Shown here in pieces: positions 8,457 to 27,174 of a stretch of DNA of 64,000 nucleotides (the stretch's first letter is position 1; each line of letters begins with the position of its first letter). This DNA comes from a virus, in the IMG/VR virus record IMGVR_UViG_3300036760_000522, positions 186,001 through 250,000 of that record, one strand, 5' to 3'. Below the pieces are notes generated by a model. That model made no database searches and had not been told where the DNA came from. It was given only the letters and a program-made list of their open reading frames with translations. The position numbers were made by a program, and so were the translations under genes.

Positions 8457-9515
8457 GTGAAAGCACCGTTCCCGTACTTCGGCGGCAAAAGCCGGGTCGC
8501 TCAGGCTGTCTGGAAGGCGTTCGGAGAAAACGTACCGAACTACATAGAACCGTTCTGCGGGTCCTGTGCAGTGCTTCTTGCTCGCCCCGGTGGGCCCGGA
8601 AAGATTGAAACTGTCAACGACGGTTGTTCCTACATTTGCAATTTCTGGAGATCAATCAAACACAACCCACAAAAAACTGCCGAGTGGTGCGACTGGCCTG
8701 TGTCCGAACTCGATTTGCATGCACGTCACGCATGGCTCATCAAGCAGTCGATCGATCTCCGCGAGAAGCTCCGAGCTGATCCCGACTACCACGACGCCAA
8801 AATCGCAGGATGGTGGGTCTGGGGGATCTGCCAATGGATCGGAGGGGGTTGGTGCAAAACCCCCTACCAACAAAGGCCGCACCTACATGATGGCGACCGA
8901 GGTGTGAACGCGGCAGAAAAACAGCTGAAGCAACAAATCCCTGGGATCCACGCTTCCGGTGTGCACAGCTTTGGAACACGTCTCCCAGCTATCGGCAACG
9001 ATCGGGCGCTCAATGGCCTGACTGCATCACCGGCACTCGAATGGTTTCAAATGCTCTCACAACGCCTCAGGAGAGTTCGATTGGTCCACGGCGACTGGAC
9101 CAGGGTACTCGGGTCTTCGACGCTTGGGAAGGGCAGGAACGTCGGAGGAAGACGGCCTACAGCTGTTTTTCTCGACGCCCCTTACGACGACGAGTTACGG
9201 GACCCTGGACTCTACACTGAGGATACAAAAAACCTCTCAGTGAAAGTCCGCATTTGGGCCCTTGAGCACGGTGATGATCCAGACCTCAGGATCGCACTTT
9301 GTGGGCTTGCGTCGGAGCACGACGGCCACATGCCGGCGACTTGGCGTGTCCATCGTTGGACGGGGGCTTCCGGCTACTCACGTGGAAAAAACCGAAGTCG
9401 TACACGCCACGAAGAAACAATTTGGTTCAGTCCGCACTGCCTCCATGCCGAAATGGACGAAACACTTTCGGCGCTCCACAACTTCGATTCAATTTCAGAA
9501 GCCTCTGATTCGTAG
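8457..9515 (+). CDS. Dam-family DNA adenine-N6 methyltransferase, DAPY variant
   Basis: This 352-residue protein (GTG start) has the layout of alpha-class Dam-like methylases. PFPYFGGKSR (4-13) is the N-terminal SAM-contact segment, YIEPFCGSCAVLLARP (about 29-44) is motif I, and VFLDAPYDDE (about 239-248) stands where motif IV DPPY is expected, so the second residue is Ala instead of Pro. A target-recognition region lies between. It would methylate adenine in phage DNA, giving protection against host restriction. It sits in a five-gene plus-strand island between two tail genes, which points to transfer as a cassette. The family is clear; site specificity cannot be read. Confidence 0.85.
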   Translation: MKAPFPYFGGKSRVAQAVWKAFGENVPNYIEPFCGSCAVLLARPGGPGKIETVNDGCSYICNFWRSIKHNPQKTAEWCDWPVSELDLHARHAWLIKQSIDLREKLRADPDYHDAKIAGWWVWGICQWIGGGWCKTPYQQRPHLHDGDRGVNAAEKQLKQQIPGIHASGVHSFGTRLPAIGNDRALNGLTASPALEWFQMLSQRLRRVRLVHGDWTRVLGSSTLGKGRNVGGRRPTAVFLDAPYDDELRDPGLYTEDTKNLSVKVRIWALEHGDDPDLRIALCGLASEHDGHMPATWRVHRWTGASGYSRGKNRSRTRHEETIWFSPHCLHAEMDETLSALHNFDSISEASDS

Positions 9516-22407: not shown

Positions 22408-23058
22408 TCAGTGCCCGTGTCCGAATGCCGTTTGGTACTTGGGCTTTCCGTCCCACTTGCTGGCAGAGTGTCCATCGATGGTGAATGACTGCCCCGACGG
22501 ACGGACTCGTTTGGTCGGACCCGTGAACTTGCCAGGAACGGCTACTACATAGTCAGTAGCCTCGTGCCCGCCTGTGGTTTTCTCTGCGATCTTTCGAACA
22601 AGGAGTACCTTGCCTCGAACCTCGACCACTTCATAGAAGTCGATGTTTGTCTGATCGTAGCCCCAACTCGTGTAGTAGATATCGCCAACGTCGGCATCGT
22701 GTTTGAACTCACGCCGCTCCTGTTGACGGTCCTCTTTCATCTTGAGCCGGGTTCTCTGGCCCGCAATTGTTTCTTCAATCTTCCGAGTCCGATCGGCCTC
22801 GCTGAGGAAACGGTAATTCCAGAGTGGCTTGTTGGCTTTGCCGGAGAAAGCGATCCCGTACGGCTTACTATTCGACTCCCAAGTCCAAATCGCGAGATCT
22901 GTACCCTCAGGGGTGATGGGATCCTTATCTCGTACCTCGGGCGGAAGATGAAACGACCGAGGTACGTGAAATCGACCCGGGAGGCCTGCCTCACGAAATC
23001 GGGCGACTACGTTCGAGATGATGACGGAATCCACATACACACAAACTGACAAAAGCAT
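22408..23058 (-). CDS. Phage protein with conserved SWGYDQTNIDFY domain
   Basis: The 216-residue frame starts at an ATG that overlaps the UDG stop (TAATG). A GTG about 8 codons in is another possible start. Residues of about 110-200 contain VGDIYYTSWGYDQTNIDFYE and further KYQTAFGHGH, a pattern I recognise from many phage and some bacterial proteins of unknown function; it is predicted as a beta-barrel-like fold. A helical, charged linker (RTRLKMKEDRQQERREF) precedes it. No enzymatic role can be given. Confidence 0.6.
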   Translation of the reverse strand: MLLSVCVYVDSVIISNVVARFREAGLPGRFHVPRSFHLPPEVRDKDPITPEGTDLAIWTWESNSKPYGIAFSGKANKPLWNYRFLSEADRTRKIEETIAGQRTRLKMKEDRQQERREFKHDADVGDIYYTSWGYDQTNIDFYEVVEVRGKVLLVRKIAEKTTGGHEATDYVVAVPGKFTGPTKRVRPSGQSFTIDGHSASKWDGKPKYQTAFGHGH

Positions 23059-23687
23059 TAGAGTGAGGAGGCGATCACTGTGTGCAAGGACTCATCGACA
23101 AAACGCCGCTTCGCTTGCGCATAGCGGCCCCAAAGAACGAAGACGACGGGTCGGCCAAGAGCATTGATGGCTTGAAGGGTCGCGTCTGTAAACGTTTCCC
23201 AGCCGTGGTCTCGGTGCGAACCAGGCTCACTGTCACGAACTGTCAGCACCGAATTGAGAAGCAAGATCCCTTGGCGAGCCCACCCCCACAAGGAGCCGTT
23301 CTGTCTAGTAACTCCAACATCCTGCTCAAGCTCGACGTAGATGTTCTGTAGGCTCGGTGGTGAGGCGTAACCGTGGGGCACGGAGAAGCAGAGGCCGTGA
23401 GCCTGTCCGAGCTTGTGATAGGGGTCCTGCCCCAAGATCACCACGCGGACGTCTTCGAGATGTGCCGCCTTGTAGGCGTTGAATATTTTGTGAGTAGGTG
23501 GATAGACAGGTAGCTGCTTCCGTTCGCTGCGTACGAAAGCAACCAACTCACGGAAGTACGCCTTTCTCGCCTCAGTACGAAAGAGTTCCTCCCATGCACC
23601 CCACAAGTTGTTCGTGTCCGCCACTCCTGTGAGCGAACACTGCACAAACGAAAGAGCCAAGAACCCGTAGGCTCCTGGCTCTTTCAA
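23058..23687 (-). CDS. ung: Uracil-DNA glycosylase (UNG family) lacking its C-terminal HPSPLS loop
   Basis: The fold is a family 1 UDG, which removes uracil from DNA. ILGQDPYHKLGQAHGLCFSV (from residue 84 of the longest frame) holds the water-activating Asp in GQDPYH, and PPSLQNIY, GILLLNSVLTV and PVVFVLWG follow in canonical order. The protein ends at LHTVIASSL, where the HPSPLS intercalation loop with its catalytic His should be, and neither other forward frame restores it. Activity may therefore be weak or changed. The frame opens at TTG 23687, but a hairpin overlaps that part and GTG 23624 matches the usual UDG N-terminus, so the start is uncertain. It is divergent from the nuclease gene. 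Confidence 0.8.
   Translation of the reverse strand: MKEPGAYGFLALSFVQCSLTGVADTNNLWGAWEELFRTEARKAYFRELVAFVRSERKQLPVYPPTHKIFNAYKAAHLEDVRVVILGQDPYHKLGQAHGLCFSVPHGYASPPSLQNIYVELEQDVGVTRQNGSLWGWARQGILLLNSVLTVRDSEPGSHRDHGWETFTDATLQAINALGRPVVFVLWGRYAQAKRRFVDESLHTVIASSL
23651..23684. other. Imperfect hairpin between divergent genes
   Basis: AAAGAGCCA (23651-23659) pairs with TGGCTCTTT (23676-23684), and inner pairs extend the stem with two mismatches. It lies at the 5' end of the UDG frame and just before the plus-strand nuclease. It could end leftward transcription coming from the 26-kb side, or be an mRNA leader structure; neither strand has a clear T run. Confidence 0.45.
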
Positions 23688-23788
23688 TCTTCAAGGAGGT
23701 GTACGTACTGACTAACAATGCAGCGGGTTCAAAAGTAGTTTCCGTCTCAGGTCCGTTTGATGGGATCGCTACCAGTGGAGGACTGTCA

Positions 23789-24157
23789 ATGATTTACGAG
23801 TACAACGCCAAGCTTCTACGCGTCGTCGACGGGGACACTATTTGGCTTGATGTCAACCTTGGCTTCGGGATCCATGCGACGCTAGACTTTCGACTTTACG
23901 GAATCAACACTCCGGAAGTGATCGGAACAACCAAGACCGCTGGGCTCGCCGCCAAGGCCGAGCTTGAACGGCTTCTTTCCGTAGCTGCACAACTTGGAAA
24001 TCCTCTGAAAATTGAGAGTACGAAATCTGACAAGTACGGTCGATATTTAGCTGTCATCCACGTCAAACAAGCCGACGGTACGGAGATCGACGTCAACGAG
24101 GAACTGATCAAGCAAGGCCATGCGACGCGGTACTTTGGAGTTGGGCCCAAGGTTTGA
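23789..24157 (+). CDS. Staphylococcal-nuclease-like protein
   Basis: I choose the ATG at 23789 (MIYEYNAKLLRVVDGDT), with GGAGG 7 bases upstream; the frame is open back to 23699, where AAGGAGG overlaps a GTG. The 122 residues match the SNase (TNase) fold: VVDGDTIWLDV, FRLYGINTPEV with the catalytic Arg, KSDKYGRYLAVIHV with the second Arg, and LIKQGHATRY. SNase enzymes cleave DNA or RNA with Ca2+. No signal peptide is seen, so it should act in the cytoplasm, for example in host DNA breakdown. It is a lone plus-strand gene in a minus-strand region. Confidence 0.85.
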   Translation: MIYEYNAKLLRVVDGDTIWLDVNLGFGIHATLDFRLYGINTPEVIGTTKTAGLAAKAELERLLSVAAQLGNPLKIESTKSDKYGRYLAVIHVKQADGTEIDVNEELIKQGHATRYFGVGPKV

Positions 24158-24171
24158 TCGGAAGTGTGGCC

Positions 24172-26070
24172 TCACACAAAAACAAAAACCTGCTCAGTAG
24201 CTGGCACCTTTCCTATTCTACCAAGAGGTAGAACCAAGGTGCGCTGCAAACGAAACCCTGCGAGACCTGCCAGTCGCACCAACTCGTCCGCAATCGGGAA
24301 CCGTTGTGCCCCTCGTCGCACATTCTTTGTGTTCACACAAAACAAACCACCGTCACGTAAGTGTCGTTTGGACTTCAACACGAACGGTTGAAGAAACCCT
24401 TCCAGCCAAAGATCCCACGTTGAATACCTGACCCAACTCTGCGCCGCACTATCAGAGTACTTCTCGACCGAAAAGTACGGAGGACTCGTTAGTACAAGAT
24501 CCGCGCGCAAGTCTGCCAGGTCCACGTCTTCGAACGGGTATTCAAAAAAGTCAAAATGGCCAACCACCGATTGCAAAGCTGTGTATGACGCACCAGCTTT
24601 AGGATGAGGATCAACGCCAACGTATCGTCTACCGCTTGCCAGAGTCCCTACAGCACGACCACCATAACCAGCACACGGATCCAAGACGGTACCGCCAACA
24701 GGGCACAACGCCTCCACCAGAGCCTTTGCAAAACAAGGGCGAAAATTGGTCGGGCCACGAACAACGGCCTGCAAAGCGCGAAACACACGTACAGGCTGCA
24801 CAGGATCACCAACAGCCAATTGAAACTTCACGGCCCTACGCACATATTCCTGGTCGTACCACGCCGATCGCACTGAAGGACGATCTTGATATCTAGCGTC
24901 ATATCTGTGTGGAAAGAACCGCTGACACAGCTTCGATCCTGAACGTGTTTCACGCACCAATCTATCTTCCACTAGTTCAGTTTTGGACAACAACAGCTTA
25001 GACCAATCTATCTCCGCCTCCTCCATCGACGGCACAACCAAAGGCAGCACAGTTCTCGAAAGAACAGCGACGACGCTCTCTACATACGTTAGTGTGCGAG
25101 CGTCCAGCCTCTTGATCGCAAGACTCGCAGTTTCAACGTCCAACTCGACTTTGCTGCTACGTGAAGGACGACCTGTACATCCAGGGGCTAAACCGTGTTG
25201 TTTCCTCCAACGCGAAACACTTGTGCGGGACACTTGAAGTACATCAGCGATGTCGTCGGTATGGAGGCCCCGATCAAATAACGATCGCAAACGATCGTAG
25301 GTCAACAGATCTCGAGGCGCTAAACCAGCCTTGGGCGTCTTGACAGCGATCTTGTAACCGAGGCTAGGATGTAGATGTGGACGCACCAAATCCAAAAACC
25401 TGTTCAGCGCTGTGCGCCCTTGAATGTGGAGGGATCCGTCCTCGTAGACTTTGCTTCTGATACCCAGACTTGTCAGAATTCCAACCTGCACGCGTTGATC
25501 CTCTAGTGAGGGACCAACAGTGATCCTTACGTAATTACCTGAACGCGATCCATCATCCATGAACCAGACAGCCAGAGCTAAGCCGTCTACCCACTCTACT
25601 GGCAAGCGTGTAAACGTTTTGGGCCCTGAACCTGACGGGTAGAACAACTGCCAATAAGGAAAGAGGGCTCGACACGCATGTGTGAACAATCGATGACCCA
25701 GATACTCCCCTTTATCTGCTTTCCGAATGGCTACTGTAAACACCCCCCACTCCTCAGCTTTCCACAACAAATACTCATGTTGTTTGACGGAGTGGTGTTC
25801 TTGGTATCGTGCTGTATTTGTACCAGAACGCCGTAAGTTACCGTCACCTAACATTGATCCAACTAGAATTGACCTCAGACGATCGGTCAAAGTATCTGGG
25901 AGCCCAAAGCGATCACTCTTAGTCAGTGTCGGAATGCCGTACTTCTGGCGAAGACGACTAACGTGTGCTTGGGAAATACCAAACACACGACCAATTTCGG
26001 TCTCTGTCTTGTGCTGATCAAGATAAAGGTCCCGCAGAAATTGTTCCGTCAATCGTGTCGACACCTTCAC
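24172..26070 (-). CDS. Fusion: HTH + LAGLIDADG homing endonuclease + HTH + TSPPY DNA methyltransferase (632 aa)
   Basis: The frame starts at GTG. Residues 21-45 (TEIGRVFGISQAHVSRLRQK) are a helix-turn-helix. Residues 60-240 match a two-motif LAGLIDADG endonuclease: ILVGSMLGDG (68-77, D76) and GLALAVWFMDDGSR (163-176, D172/D173). A second HTH, DDIADVLQVSRTSVSRWRKQ, is at 272-291. Residues of about 380-632 are an amino-methyltransferase with motif I DPCAGYGGRAVG (464-475) and motif IV TSPPYF (528-533). There is no intein splice junction, so this is a fused polypeptide rather than an intein. It may cut and also protect its target site. It is alone, with its own intergenic region upstream. Confidence 0.8.
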   Translation of the reverse strand: MKVSTRLTEQFLRDLYLDQHKTETEIGRVFGISQAHVSRLRQKYGIPTLTKSDRFGLPDTLTDRLRSILVGSMLGDGNLRRSGTNTARYQEHHSVKQHEYLLWKAEEWGVFTVAIRKADKGEYLGHRLFTHACRALFPYWQLFYPSGSGPKTFTRLPVEWVDGLALAVWFMDDGSRSGNYVRITVGPSLEDQRVQVGILTSLGIRSKVYEDGSLHIQGRTALNRFLDLVRPHLHPSLGYKIAVKTPKAGLAPRDLLTYDRLRSLFDRGLHTDDIADVLQVSRTSVSRWRKQHGLAPGCTGRPSRSSKVELDVETASLAIKRLDARTLTYVESVVAVLSRTVLPLVVPSMEEAEIDWSKLLLSKTELVEDRLVRETRSGSKLCQRFFPHRYDARYQDRPSVRSAWYDQEYVRRAVKFQLAVGDPVQPVRVFRALQAVVRGPTNFRPCFAKALVEALCPVGGTVLDPCAGYGGRAVGTLASGRRYVGVDPHPKAGASYTALQSVVGHFDFFEYPFEDVDLADLRADLVLTSPPYFSVEKYSDSAAQSWVRYSTWDLWLEGFLQPFVLKSKRHLRDGGLFCVNTKNVRRGAQRFPIADELVRLAGLAGFRLQRTLVLPLGRIGKVPATEQVFVFV

Positions 26071-26211: not shown

Positions 26212-26247
26212 GAAAAAGGCCGCCAGGGGTCTCCCAGCGGCCTTTCT
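26212..26247 (-). terminator. Rho-independent terminator after the major capsid gene
   Basis: GCGGCCTTT (26237-26245) and AAAGGCCGC (26215-26223) form a 9-bp GC-rich stem with an inner GGG/CCC pairing possible in the loop. On the minus strand it is followed by TTTTTCTATTTC. It lies 43 bases past the capsid stop and should end the head-operon transcript. Confidence 0.9.
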
Positions 26248-26289: not shown

Positions 26290-27174
26290 TCAAACTCTGG
26301 TCACGACCAGGCGGCTGACAGCACGTGGGTTGAACGCGCCGATGCCGATATTTTCAAAGACCGAAAATCCGATCAGACGGTTCTTGGGATCGTCGGCGCT
26401 CAAAACCGTGAGTTCTGTACGAACCGGGAACCGGCCAAAGTTCTCGGCTTCCGCGCAGATGTAGATGAACCCAACCGGTACGATTCTGCTCGTGATGATC
26501 TGCGCTCCCCACAACACAGCTTGTAGGCCTGTGTTGAGAAGGACGGCCTGGCTTTCGATATCCAGGATGTCCCGACCGAACTTGCGGATGTCCGCATAGT
26601 CGGTCGCGTTCATGAAGATCCGGGCGACCCGAAGCCCGTGACGCTCGACCTCTGCGAATGCGTCGGCCAAGAACGACGGTGAGACCGGTGCGACCACAGC
26701 CAAGTCAGGGTTGGTCTGACCGGGTAGTGTGTCGAAGCCGCTGACAGCAACGCTGTCAACGATTGCGAAACCGCGCTCGTCTTCAGCTGCTGCAATCTGC
26801 GCTTTCGCCAGGTCCTGAGCACGCTCGATCATGTCGAACCTGCGCTCCTTGATCTGGGAGAGCGGGATCTCAGGATTCGAAGCAATCTCGAAGACCGGGA
26901 AGATCACACGACGTGACTTCTGGATCGACTGGATGTTGGCGCCTTCTTCACCGACGACGAACGCCGTGACTTCAGGATCCTTGTCGTAAACAGGCAAGGC
27001 GCCGTCAGGCAGCTCTTCCACGAGGAAGCTCTTCCGGATGACTGCCACGTAGTCGCGTCGTAGACGCAACGATTGAATCATCGAAGCCGCAAGCTTCTCA
27101 CGCCCTTGCGGTGTTCTGATGTGTTCGCCGATTAGGCGCTGTCGGATCTCGTTACTGATTATGGAAGCTGACAT
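26290..27174 (-). CDS. Major capsid protein, HK97-like fold (294 aa)
   Basis: The ATG start has GAGGTG as SD. The sequence has features of HK97-type capsid proteins of large phages: an N-terminal helix region, an E-loop-like stretch (VEELPDGALPVYDKDPEVTA), a long spine helix (IKERRFDMIERAQDLAKAQIAAAEDE) and an A-domain (GAQIITSRIVPVGFIYICAEAE) with C-terminal strands. The protein is the last gene of the head module, directly after a decoration-like protein and upstream of a strong terminator, as expected for the most highly expressed head gene. No long cleavable delta domain is visible; scaffolding is likely provided by the separate Q-rich protein. Confidence 0.85.
   Translation of the reverse strand: MSASIISNEIRQRLIGEHIRTPQGREKLAASMIQSLRLRRDYVAVIRKSFLVEELPDGALPVYDKDPEVTAFVVGEEGANIQSIQKSRRVIFPVFEIASNPEIPLSQIKERRFDMIERAQDLAKAQIAAAEDERGFAIVDSVAVSGFDTLPGQTNPDLAVVAPVSPSFLADAFAEVERHGLRVARIFMNATDYADIRKFGRDILDIESQAVLLNTGLQAVLWGAQIITSRIVPVGFIYICAEAENFGRFPVRTELTVLSADDPKNRLIGFSVFENIGIGAFNPRAVSRLVVTRV

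Follow-up and report, generated by a model that had tools for sequence, protein, structure and literature searches.

The gene examined here (24172..26070, minus strand) lies in a stretch of 64,000 nucleotides, hereafter the window, that covers positions 186001-250000 of a virus record of 301,550 bp. It is mobile, and the joining of a LAGLIDADG nuclease to an amino-methyltransferase (MTase) that it encodes is, judging from the sequences compared, a conserved natural fusion and not the product of chance. The reading that we prefer, and to which we give an even chance, is that it constitutes a free-standing homing element of jumbo phages which would carry its own modification enzyme, probably shielding the cut site in its own genome.

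The gene is one open frame with a GTG start and encodes a 632-aa protein, whose parts, all on the minus strand, come in the order helix-turn-helix (HTH), LAGLIDADG, HTH and MTase. The first HTH (aa 15-44, 25939..26028) matches Pfam HTH_28 and appears as helices in an AlphaFold2 model, which was built on an alignment of 36 homologs and has a mean pLDDT of 90.5 for the whole protein. The nuclease domain (aa 58-245, 25336..25899) has the monomeric I-SceI-like fold: LAGLIDADG_2 (PF03161) is matched over aa 66-185 with an E-value of 4.7e-18, and I-SceI (1r7m) superposes on residues 19-242 of the model with a Z-score of 22.5, at 2.9 A over 195 residues. It contains the two motifs LVGSMLGDGNLR (aa 69-80, 25831..25866) and ALAVWFMDDGSRS (aa 165-177, 25540..25578), with D76 and D173 as their acidic residues. 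The second HTH (aa 264-291, 25198..25281; Pfam HTH_23, E 6e-9) separates nuclease and MTase. The initial annotation had located both HTHs in that interval; both do exist, but one of them precedes the LAGLIDADG domain and only the other follows it. The MTase domain (aa 365-632, 24175..24978) was assigned from PF01555, from the class I MTase folds that residues 365-632 match when the model is compared with known structures, and from the alignment; the Pfam N6_N4_Mtase match (aa 524-585, E 1e-7) surrounds TSPPY. Motif I, for SAM binding, is VLDPCAGYGGR (aa 462-472, 24655..24687) and motif IV is TSPPYF (aa 528-533, 24472..24489). Because the structural neighbours of this part are mostly class I MTases that do not act on DNA, the closest including the tRNA MTases Trm11 and TrmN, the fold does not reveal its base or substrate; annotated viral relatives are named N4-cytosine DNA MTases. 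The Pfam domains, the I-SceI fold and the class I MTase fold with TSPPY thus bear out the first reading of the protein as two LAGLIDADG motifs joined to an amino-DNA methyltransferase.

Pfam found no intein domain in the 632-aa protein, Rfam no self-splicing intron in two of the loci collected below (L006 and L070), and PADLOC returned matches to generic MTase and HEase models only, including mad2. As far as the features tested go, they place the protein among LAGLIDADG homing nucleases and free-standing homing elements. It shares with I-SceI and I-WcaI the same fold (over 195-198 residues), two LAGLIDADG motifs per chain and acidic residues in place. I-SceI, however, is intron-encoded and has neither MTase nor HTH, whereas here the nuclease is encoded by a free-standing gene behind that of the major capsid protein (MCP), and an MTase is part of the same chain.

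A search for the same order of domains, which had been suggested as a check, gave homologs with identical order that align end to end. In the first IMG/VR scan the full-length homologs were 33-60% identical, and the main alignment comprises 36 fused proteins that are 23-59% identical to the 632-aa protein. No mycobacteriophage was found among protein matches at E 1e-5, and megablast gave no relatives of the window among sequenced phages at the DNA level. On the nuclease side, D76 is kept in 35/35 proteins, one row lacking the region, and D172, D173, G174 and K240 in 36/36; on the MTase side, D464, G468, G470, S529 and P531 are kept in 36/36, and P530 and Y532 in 35/36. Four of the close pairs gave a usable dS, and their dN/dS ranges over 0.07-0.13 in the nuclease half and 0.04-0.09 in the MTase half; these are rough values, dS being high in some pairs, and in the more diverged pairs it is saturated in at least one half. 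Purifying selection thus acts on both halves in the close pairs tested, and from this and the conservation of the active sites, both activities appear to be selected. A frame of 1,230 aa in a 485-kb uncultured phage (LR745208) contains two nuclease units and an MTase, the first unit being degenerate.

These data speak directly to the outcome named at the outset as the one to look for against the fusion, i.e. a degenerate homing endonuclease with broken active sites, inserted in a common methyltransferase. It is true that phage methylase genes are among the targets of homing elements (PMC9957025, PMC11855218), and a hidden HNH gene inserted in phage methylases has been described (PMC11855218). 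Here, the alignment of 36 proteins contradicts such a reading and leaves it almost no probability: the active sites are intact, being almost invariably kept in both domains, the nuclease is N-terminal to a complete MTase and not inside it, and it is the whole fused gene that is present or absent as a unit, not the nuclease alone. The components of a single-chain restriction-modification system are present, namely a nuclease and an MTase on one polypeptide, each with its active site intact. In many MTases, the recognition domain is housed in one of two places, between motifs I and IV or following motif IV. No large insert is apparent at either place in the present domain, a point in favour of regarding the LAGLIDADG and HTH parts as an arm that only steers an orphan MTase to DNA, cutting being absent or unimportant. 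We find this very unlikely, since the retention of D76 (35/35) and D173 (36/36) exceeds what binding alone demands, members of the MTase family that stand alone do without such an arm, and nuclease folds are swapped while the MTase stays.

The conserved neighbour of the fusion gene is the MCP gene (26290..27174, minus strand; phrog_2522 major head protein, E 8.6e-51). At all fused loci with a phrog_2522-type MCP, the fusion lies downstream of the MCP gene and on the same strand, mostly within 100-400 bp, the exception being L075, where the distance is 1.7 kb. In the window, the fusion gene starts just behind the terminator hairpin of the MCP gene (26218..26242, minus strand), whose predicted RNA fold has a z-score of -4.8 against shuffles. 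The initial annotation saw the gene standing between two terminator-like structures; the upstream one is this hairpin, but the downstream one did not hold, hairpins there being no better than shuffles (z 0.2 and -0.7), and a consensus scan gave no excess of terminators. On the other side lies a gene of the uracil-DNA glycosylase (UDG) superfamily (23058..23687, minus strand; PF03167). Between the two, a SNase-like nuclease gene (23699-24157, plus strand) converges on the fusion gene, from which it is separated by a 14-bp gap. The window contains a further, unrelated DNA methyltransferase gene (phrog_56, 8457-9515, plus strand), which stands without a nuclease.

The content of the site behind the MCP gene varies widely. 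A search with the MCP kept 80 loci, 63 of which had enough downstream sequence: 13 contained fusions, 16 solo nucleases (with L127, truncated at its contig end, among them) and 4 other MTase-bearing forms or remnants, and 30 were empty, proportions that are rough because there are some near-copies among the 80 and the choice of queries has enriched the full set. On an MCP tree of 116 rows, which is quick and poorly resolved, at least 31 changes among four downstream states are needed, and the two members of a close pair can have different contents: L144 (fusion) and L140 (empty), L145 (fusion) and L129 (empty), L006 (fusion) and L013 (solo nuclease). The empty site is clean in L129, where 45 bp stand in place of the 2,490 bp that include the fusion gene of L145; the flanks of the two are 90% identical to 60-70 bp past the MCP stop, i.e. 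just behind the MCP terminator, and 78% identical further on. The insertion is intergenic. Another empty site is that of L076, whose UDG-like gene comes 63 bp after the MCP gene; in the window, the fusion and SNase genes lie in that interval. The SNase-like gene, which is absent between the MCP and UDG-like genes of L076, may belong to the same inserted stretch. Conversely, L005 and L075 are 91% identical in DNA up to the MCP gene, yet carry different fusion alleles. Scars are found as well: in L081 and L082 a 97-aa frame runs straight from the beginning of the protein into the final portion of the MTase, and in L126 there is an intact MTase and a degenerate nuclease half. A clade of solo nucleases occupies the same spot behind the MCP gene without an MTase, and the MTase is therefore not indispensable there.

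Gain, decay and loss at one spot are the life cycle expected of a homing gene. The suggestion that this is a mobile gene is thus upheld by its patchy presence behind a conserved gene, the changes on the MCP tree and the clean empty sites; related phages that lack the gene and share the flanks, which the initial annotation proposed to look for, are found in L129 (against L145), L140 (against L144), L076 and, for another nuclease type described below, L317 (against L319). A single-chain restriction-modification system could also be a weapon in competition, which destroys co-infecting relatives instead of homing, mobility being a by-product. We consider this distinctly unlikely. It is true that the gene is long-lived with both activities conserved, and that a homing nuclease of PhiPA3 gains an advantage by cutting PhiKZ (review PMC12908238), but patchy presence in close relatives and clean empty sites with common flanks indicate mobility. 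The weapon and the homing model overlap, and both include a protection step. In T4, the free-standing gene segD is likewise a neighbour of the gene 23 MCP, being located between genes 23 and 24 (PMC2988022). The Seg/Mob genes resemble the fusion gene in being placed beside a conserved structural gene, in their patchy distribution and in having no intron or intein of their own (PMC2988022); they differ in that they are of the GIY-YIG or HNH type, have no fused MTase and derive immunity by other means. T4 segD and the PhiPA3 nuclease directed against PhiKZ are functional parallels. Tandem nucleases also occur behind the MCP gene (L153:2834-6209, L004:5989-8708 and L124:6991-10111), either a solo nuclease beside a fusion or three in a row.

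The fusion with LAGLIDADG_2 is one of several. With the MTase alignment as the sole query, one METHYLTRANSFERASE turned up with several nuclease partners: the MTase module is widespread among phages, with differing partners at its N-terminus. Long N-termini on MTase frames are LAGLIDADG_2 (38), ParB-like (18), EDxHD/Vsr-like (9), tandem PD-(D/E)XK-like (6), LAGLIDADG_3-type (4) and unassigned (15), while 59 members of the family are short or standalone; members without a homing nuclease include isolated phages of Vibrio, Bacteroides and Staphylococcus. The PD-(D/E)XK-like form (L147, L169, L171, L176, L180, L229) is located behind the same MCP gene as the fusion; its model has a pLDDT of 80.5 and matches best single-chain PvuII and NhoI, with modest TM-scores. 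The LAGLIDADG_3-type forms L163 and L164 lie behind the gene of an unrelated, Gp23-type MCP (PF07068, E 1e-73 and 3e-69) and L181 has the same neighbour; the N-terminus of L163 is GIY-YIG-like, to judge from its sequence and from phrog_314. Most of the 28 Gp23-type MCP loci are empty, L292-L294 and L307 have a solo nuclease, and L303 has a solo nuclease together with a 64-aa remnant of the MTase. All nine EDxHD-MTase loci, an assignment that rests on PHROG matches (phrog_559, phrog_9084) and motif reading, not on structure, follow one conserved gene of about 1,000-1,155 aa, for which no family match was found in Pfam or PHROGs. The loci behind this gene of about 1,100 aa include L166, L162, L172-L175 and L319, and L317, which is empty: 97 bp are found there against 2,670 bp in L319, with flanks 78% and about 80% identical. 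Lastly, L197 has the nuclease and MTase in separate adjoining frames near a divergent MCP, and in L161 the MTase is joined to a nuclease of the solo clade, so the pairing of nuclease and MTase seems to have arisen more than once.

This recurrence suggests a wider class, which we put forward tentatively and with slightly less than an even chance: self-marking homing elements in large phages, in which one MTase module would share its polypeptide with nucleases of four or more types (LAGLIDADG_2, LAGLIDADG_3-type with or without GIY-YIG, PD-(D/E)XK and EDxHD/Vsr), behind capsid and other conserved genes, and in which self would be told from non-self by methylation of the homing site. Several things argue against our best explanation: the clade of solo nucleases behind the MCP gene, the intact MTase beside a degenerate nuclease in L126, the lack of a target or co-conversion signature in the MCP gene (see below), and the occurrence of the MTase family standalone or fused to ParB in phages, by which it can work without a nuclease, for instance against host restriction. 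The MTase might then be a cargo: the nuclease would spread the gene, and the MTase would pay for it through a short motif of its own (by countering host restriction or regulating phage genes) and not by guarding the cut site, the fusion holding mobility and benefit together. We judge this rather unlikely, though it has several points in its favour, namely the family members that have no homing nuclease (59 short or standalone, 18 fused to ParB), the retention of the MTase beside a degenerate nuclease in L126, and the pairing of a homing nuclease with an antitoxin in moraphages, which was proposed to offset cost (PMC12619734). However, an in-frame fusion is unnecessary for cargo, and varied cargo would be expected, yet what is seen is a single MTase family, joined again and again in one polypeptide to nucleases of four types; in addition, a separate MTase without nuclease (phrog_56) is already present elsewhere in the window. 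The moraphage pairs (PMC12619734) are like the present fusion in coupling a homing nuclease of jumbo phages to a second activity, but they consist of separate genes and involve an antitoxin, not a fused MTase. The self-marking model predicts the recurrent pairing, in one chain and at conserved genes, of one MTase with several nuclease types, and for this reason we see such pairing as agreeing with it, without being proof.

In the self-marking model, the I-SceI-like nuclease would act on co-infecting relatives without the element, cutting a long site within their MCP gene or close to it, and repair from the element-bearing genome would copy the gene in behind the MCP gene. In the carrier's own genome, the fused MTase would methylate either the whole target or some site within it, and the carrier would thereby be immune. 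Cutter and marker would together amount to a restriction-modification unit on a single chain, as specific as a homing enzyme, and the HTH and LAGLIDADG surfaces would bring both activities to DNA. Cleavage, a target within the MCP gene or close by, methylation of this same target and protection are what we infer as most likely. Homing endonucleases must spare the genome of their carrier, and immunity usually comes from the insertion itself or from a diverged site. Free-standing nucleases are known to cut hundreds or thousands of bp from the insertion site (PMC2988022). Insertion of such a gene thus leaves the cut site whole, and the carrier needs another immunity.

As to the target, LAGLIDADG frames interrupt the MCP genes of related phages (L031:3963-7099 and L039:5071-6824), with a group I intron match (RF00028) upstream, at 3963-4211 of L031. 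Together with the positions behind two MCP families, these frames suggest a target in the MCP gene, which would probably contain the cut site. Right behind an interrupted MCP gene, the opposite strand also encodes an MTase with a LAGLIDADG_3-type nuclease. Identity profiles of pairs with versus without the insert revealed no clear gradient of co-conversion in the MCP gene: identity in bin6 minus that in bin1 is -0.018 for occupied/empty pairs, +0.011 when both are empty and -0.016 when both are occupied. A stretch of the MCP gene near codon 147 stood out for carriers of solo nucleases and was considered as a target; it was rejected, as the letters show no consistent difference between carriers and non-carriers.

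An N-terminal nuclease and an amino-MTase in one polypeptide are also found in Type IIG/IIC enzymes such as MmeI and BcgI. These have PD-(D/E)XK nucleases, short sites and a recognition domain or subunit, and serve in cellular defence. The 632-aa protein is similar to them in the arrangement of both activities in one chain, but it has a LAGLIDADG nuclease and its gene lies behind a phage capsid gene. The methylase of mycobacteriophage Taj carries an extra LAGLIDADG domain, which is described as an insertion, found in nine sequences and apparently vertical (PMC9957025). The authors of that study considered that the two might form a restriction-modification system on a single peptide, but they thought it improbable, as LAGLIDADG nucleases were absent from the systems of this kind described until then (PMC9957025). 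The Taj protein resembles ours in that a LAGLIDADG nuclease and a DNA methylase are in one phage protein, and differs in that there is no recurrence on other nucleases. In the open-licence literature, we found nothing closer to a fusion of a homing endonuclease with an MTase than these reports (PMC9957025, PMC11855218), and no description of a recurrent nuclease-MTase homing class.

If the self-marking model is true, a marker of its own would free a homing gene from the immunity constraint, so that the most conserved viral genes would become targets, and the fusion would be a LAGLIDADG-based single-chain restriction-modification system, a possibility set aside as unlikely before (PMC9957025). 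The wider class, if true, would be a missing link from homing endonucleases to restriction-modification, and MTases of long sites would be usable as tools. The many loci make the question of self-marking directly testable.

Three further observations concern the MTase family. ParB-like N-terminal domains (L168, L186, L214 and 15 others) occur in another set of phages or prophages. Longer fusions (L080, L083, L101, L114, L144, L203 and L069) have a C-terminal extension of several cysteine-rich modules, zinc-ribbon or CGNR-like, which probably provide extra DNA binding. Finally, a LAGLIDADG-MTase fusion (L255:3444-5741) is present on a contig whose bin is assigned to an Altiarchaeales archaeon; it comes two frames after an intein-domain protein and may extend the class to archaeal elements.
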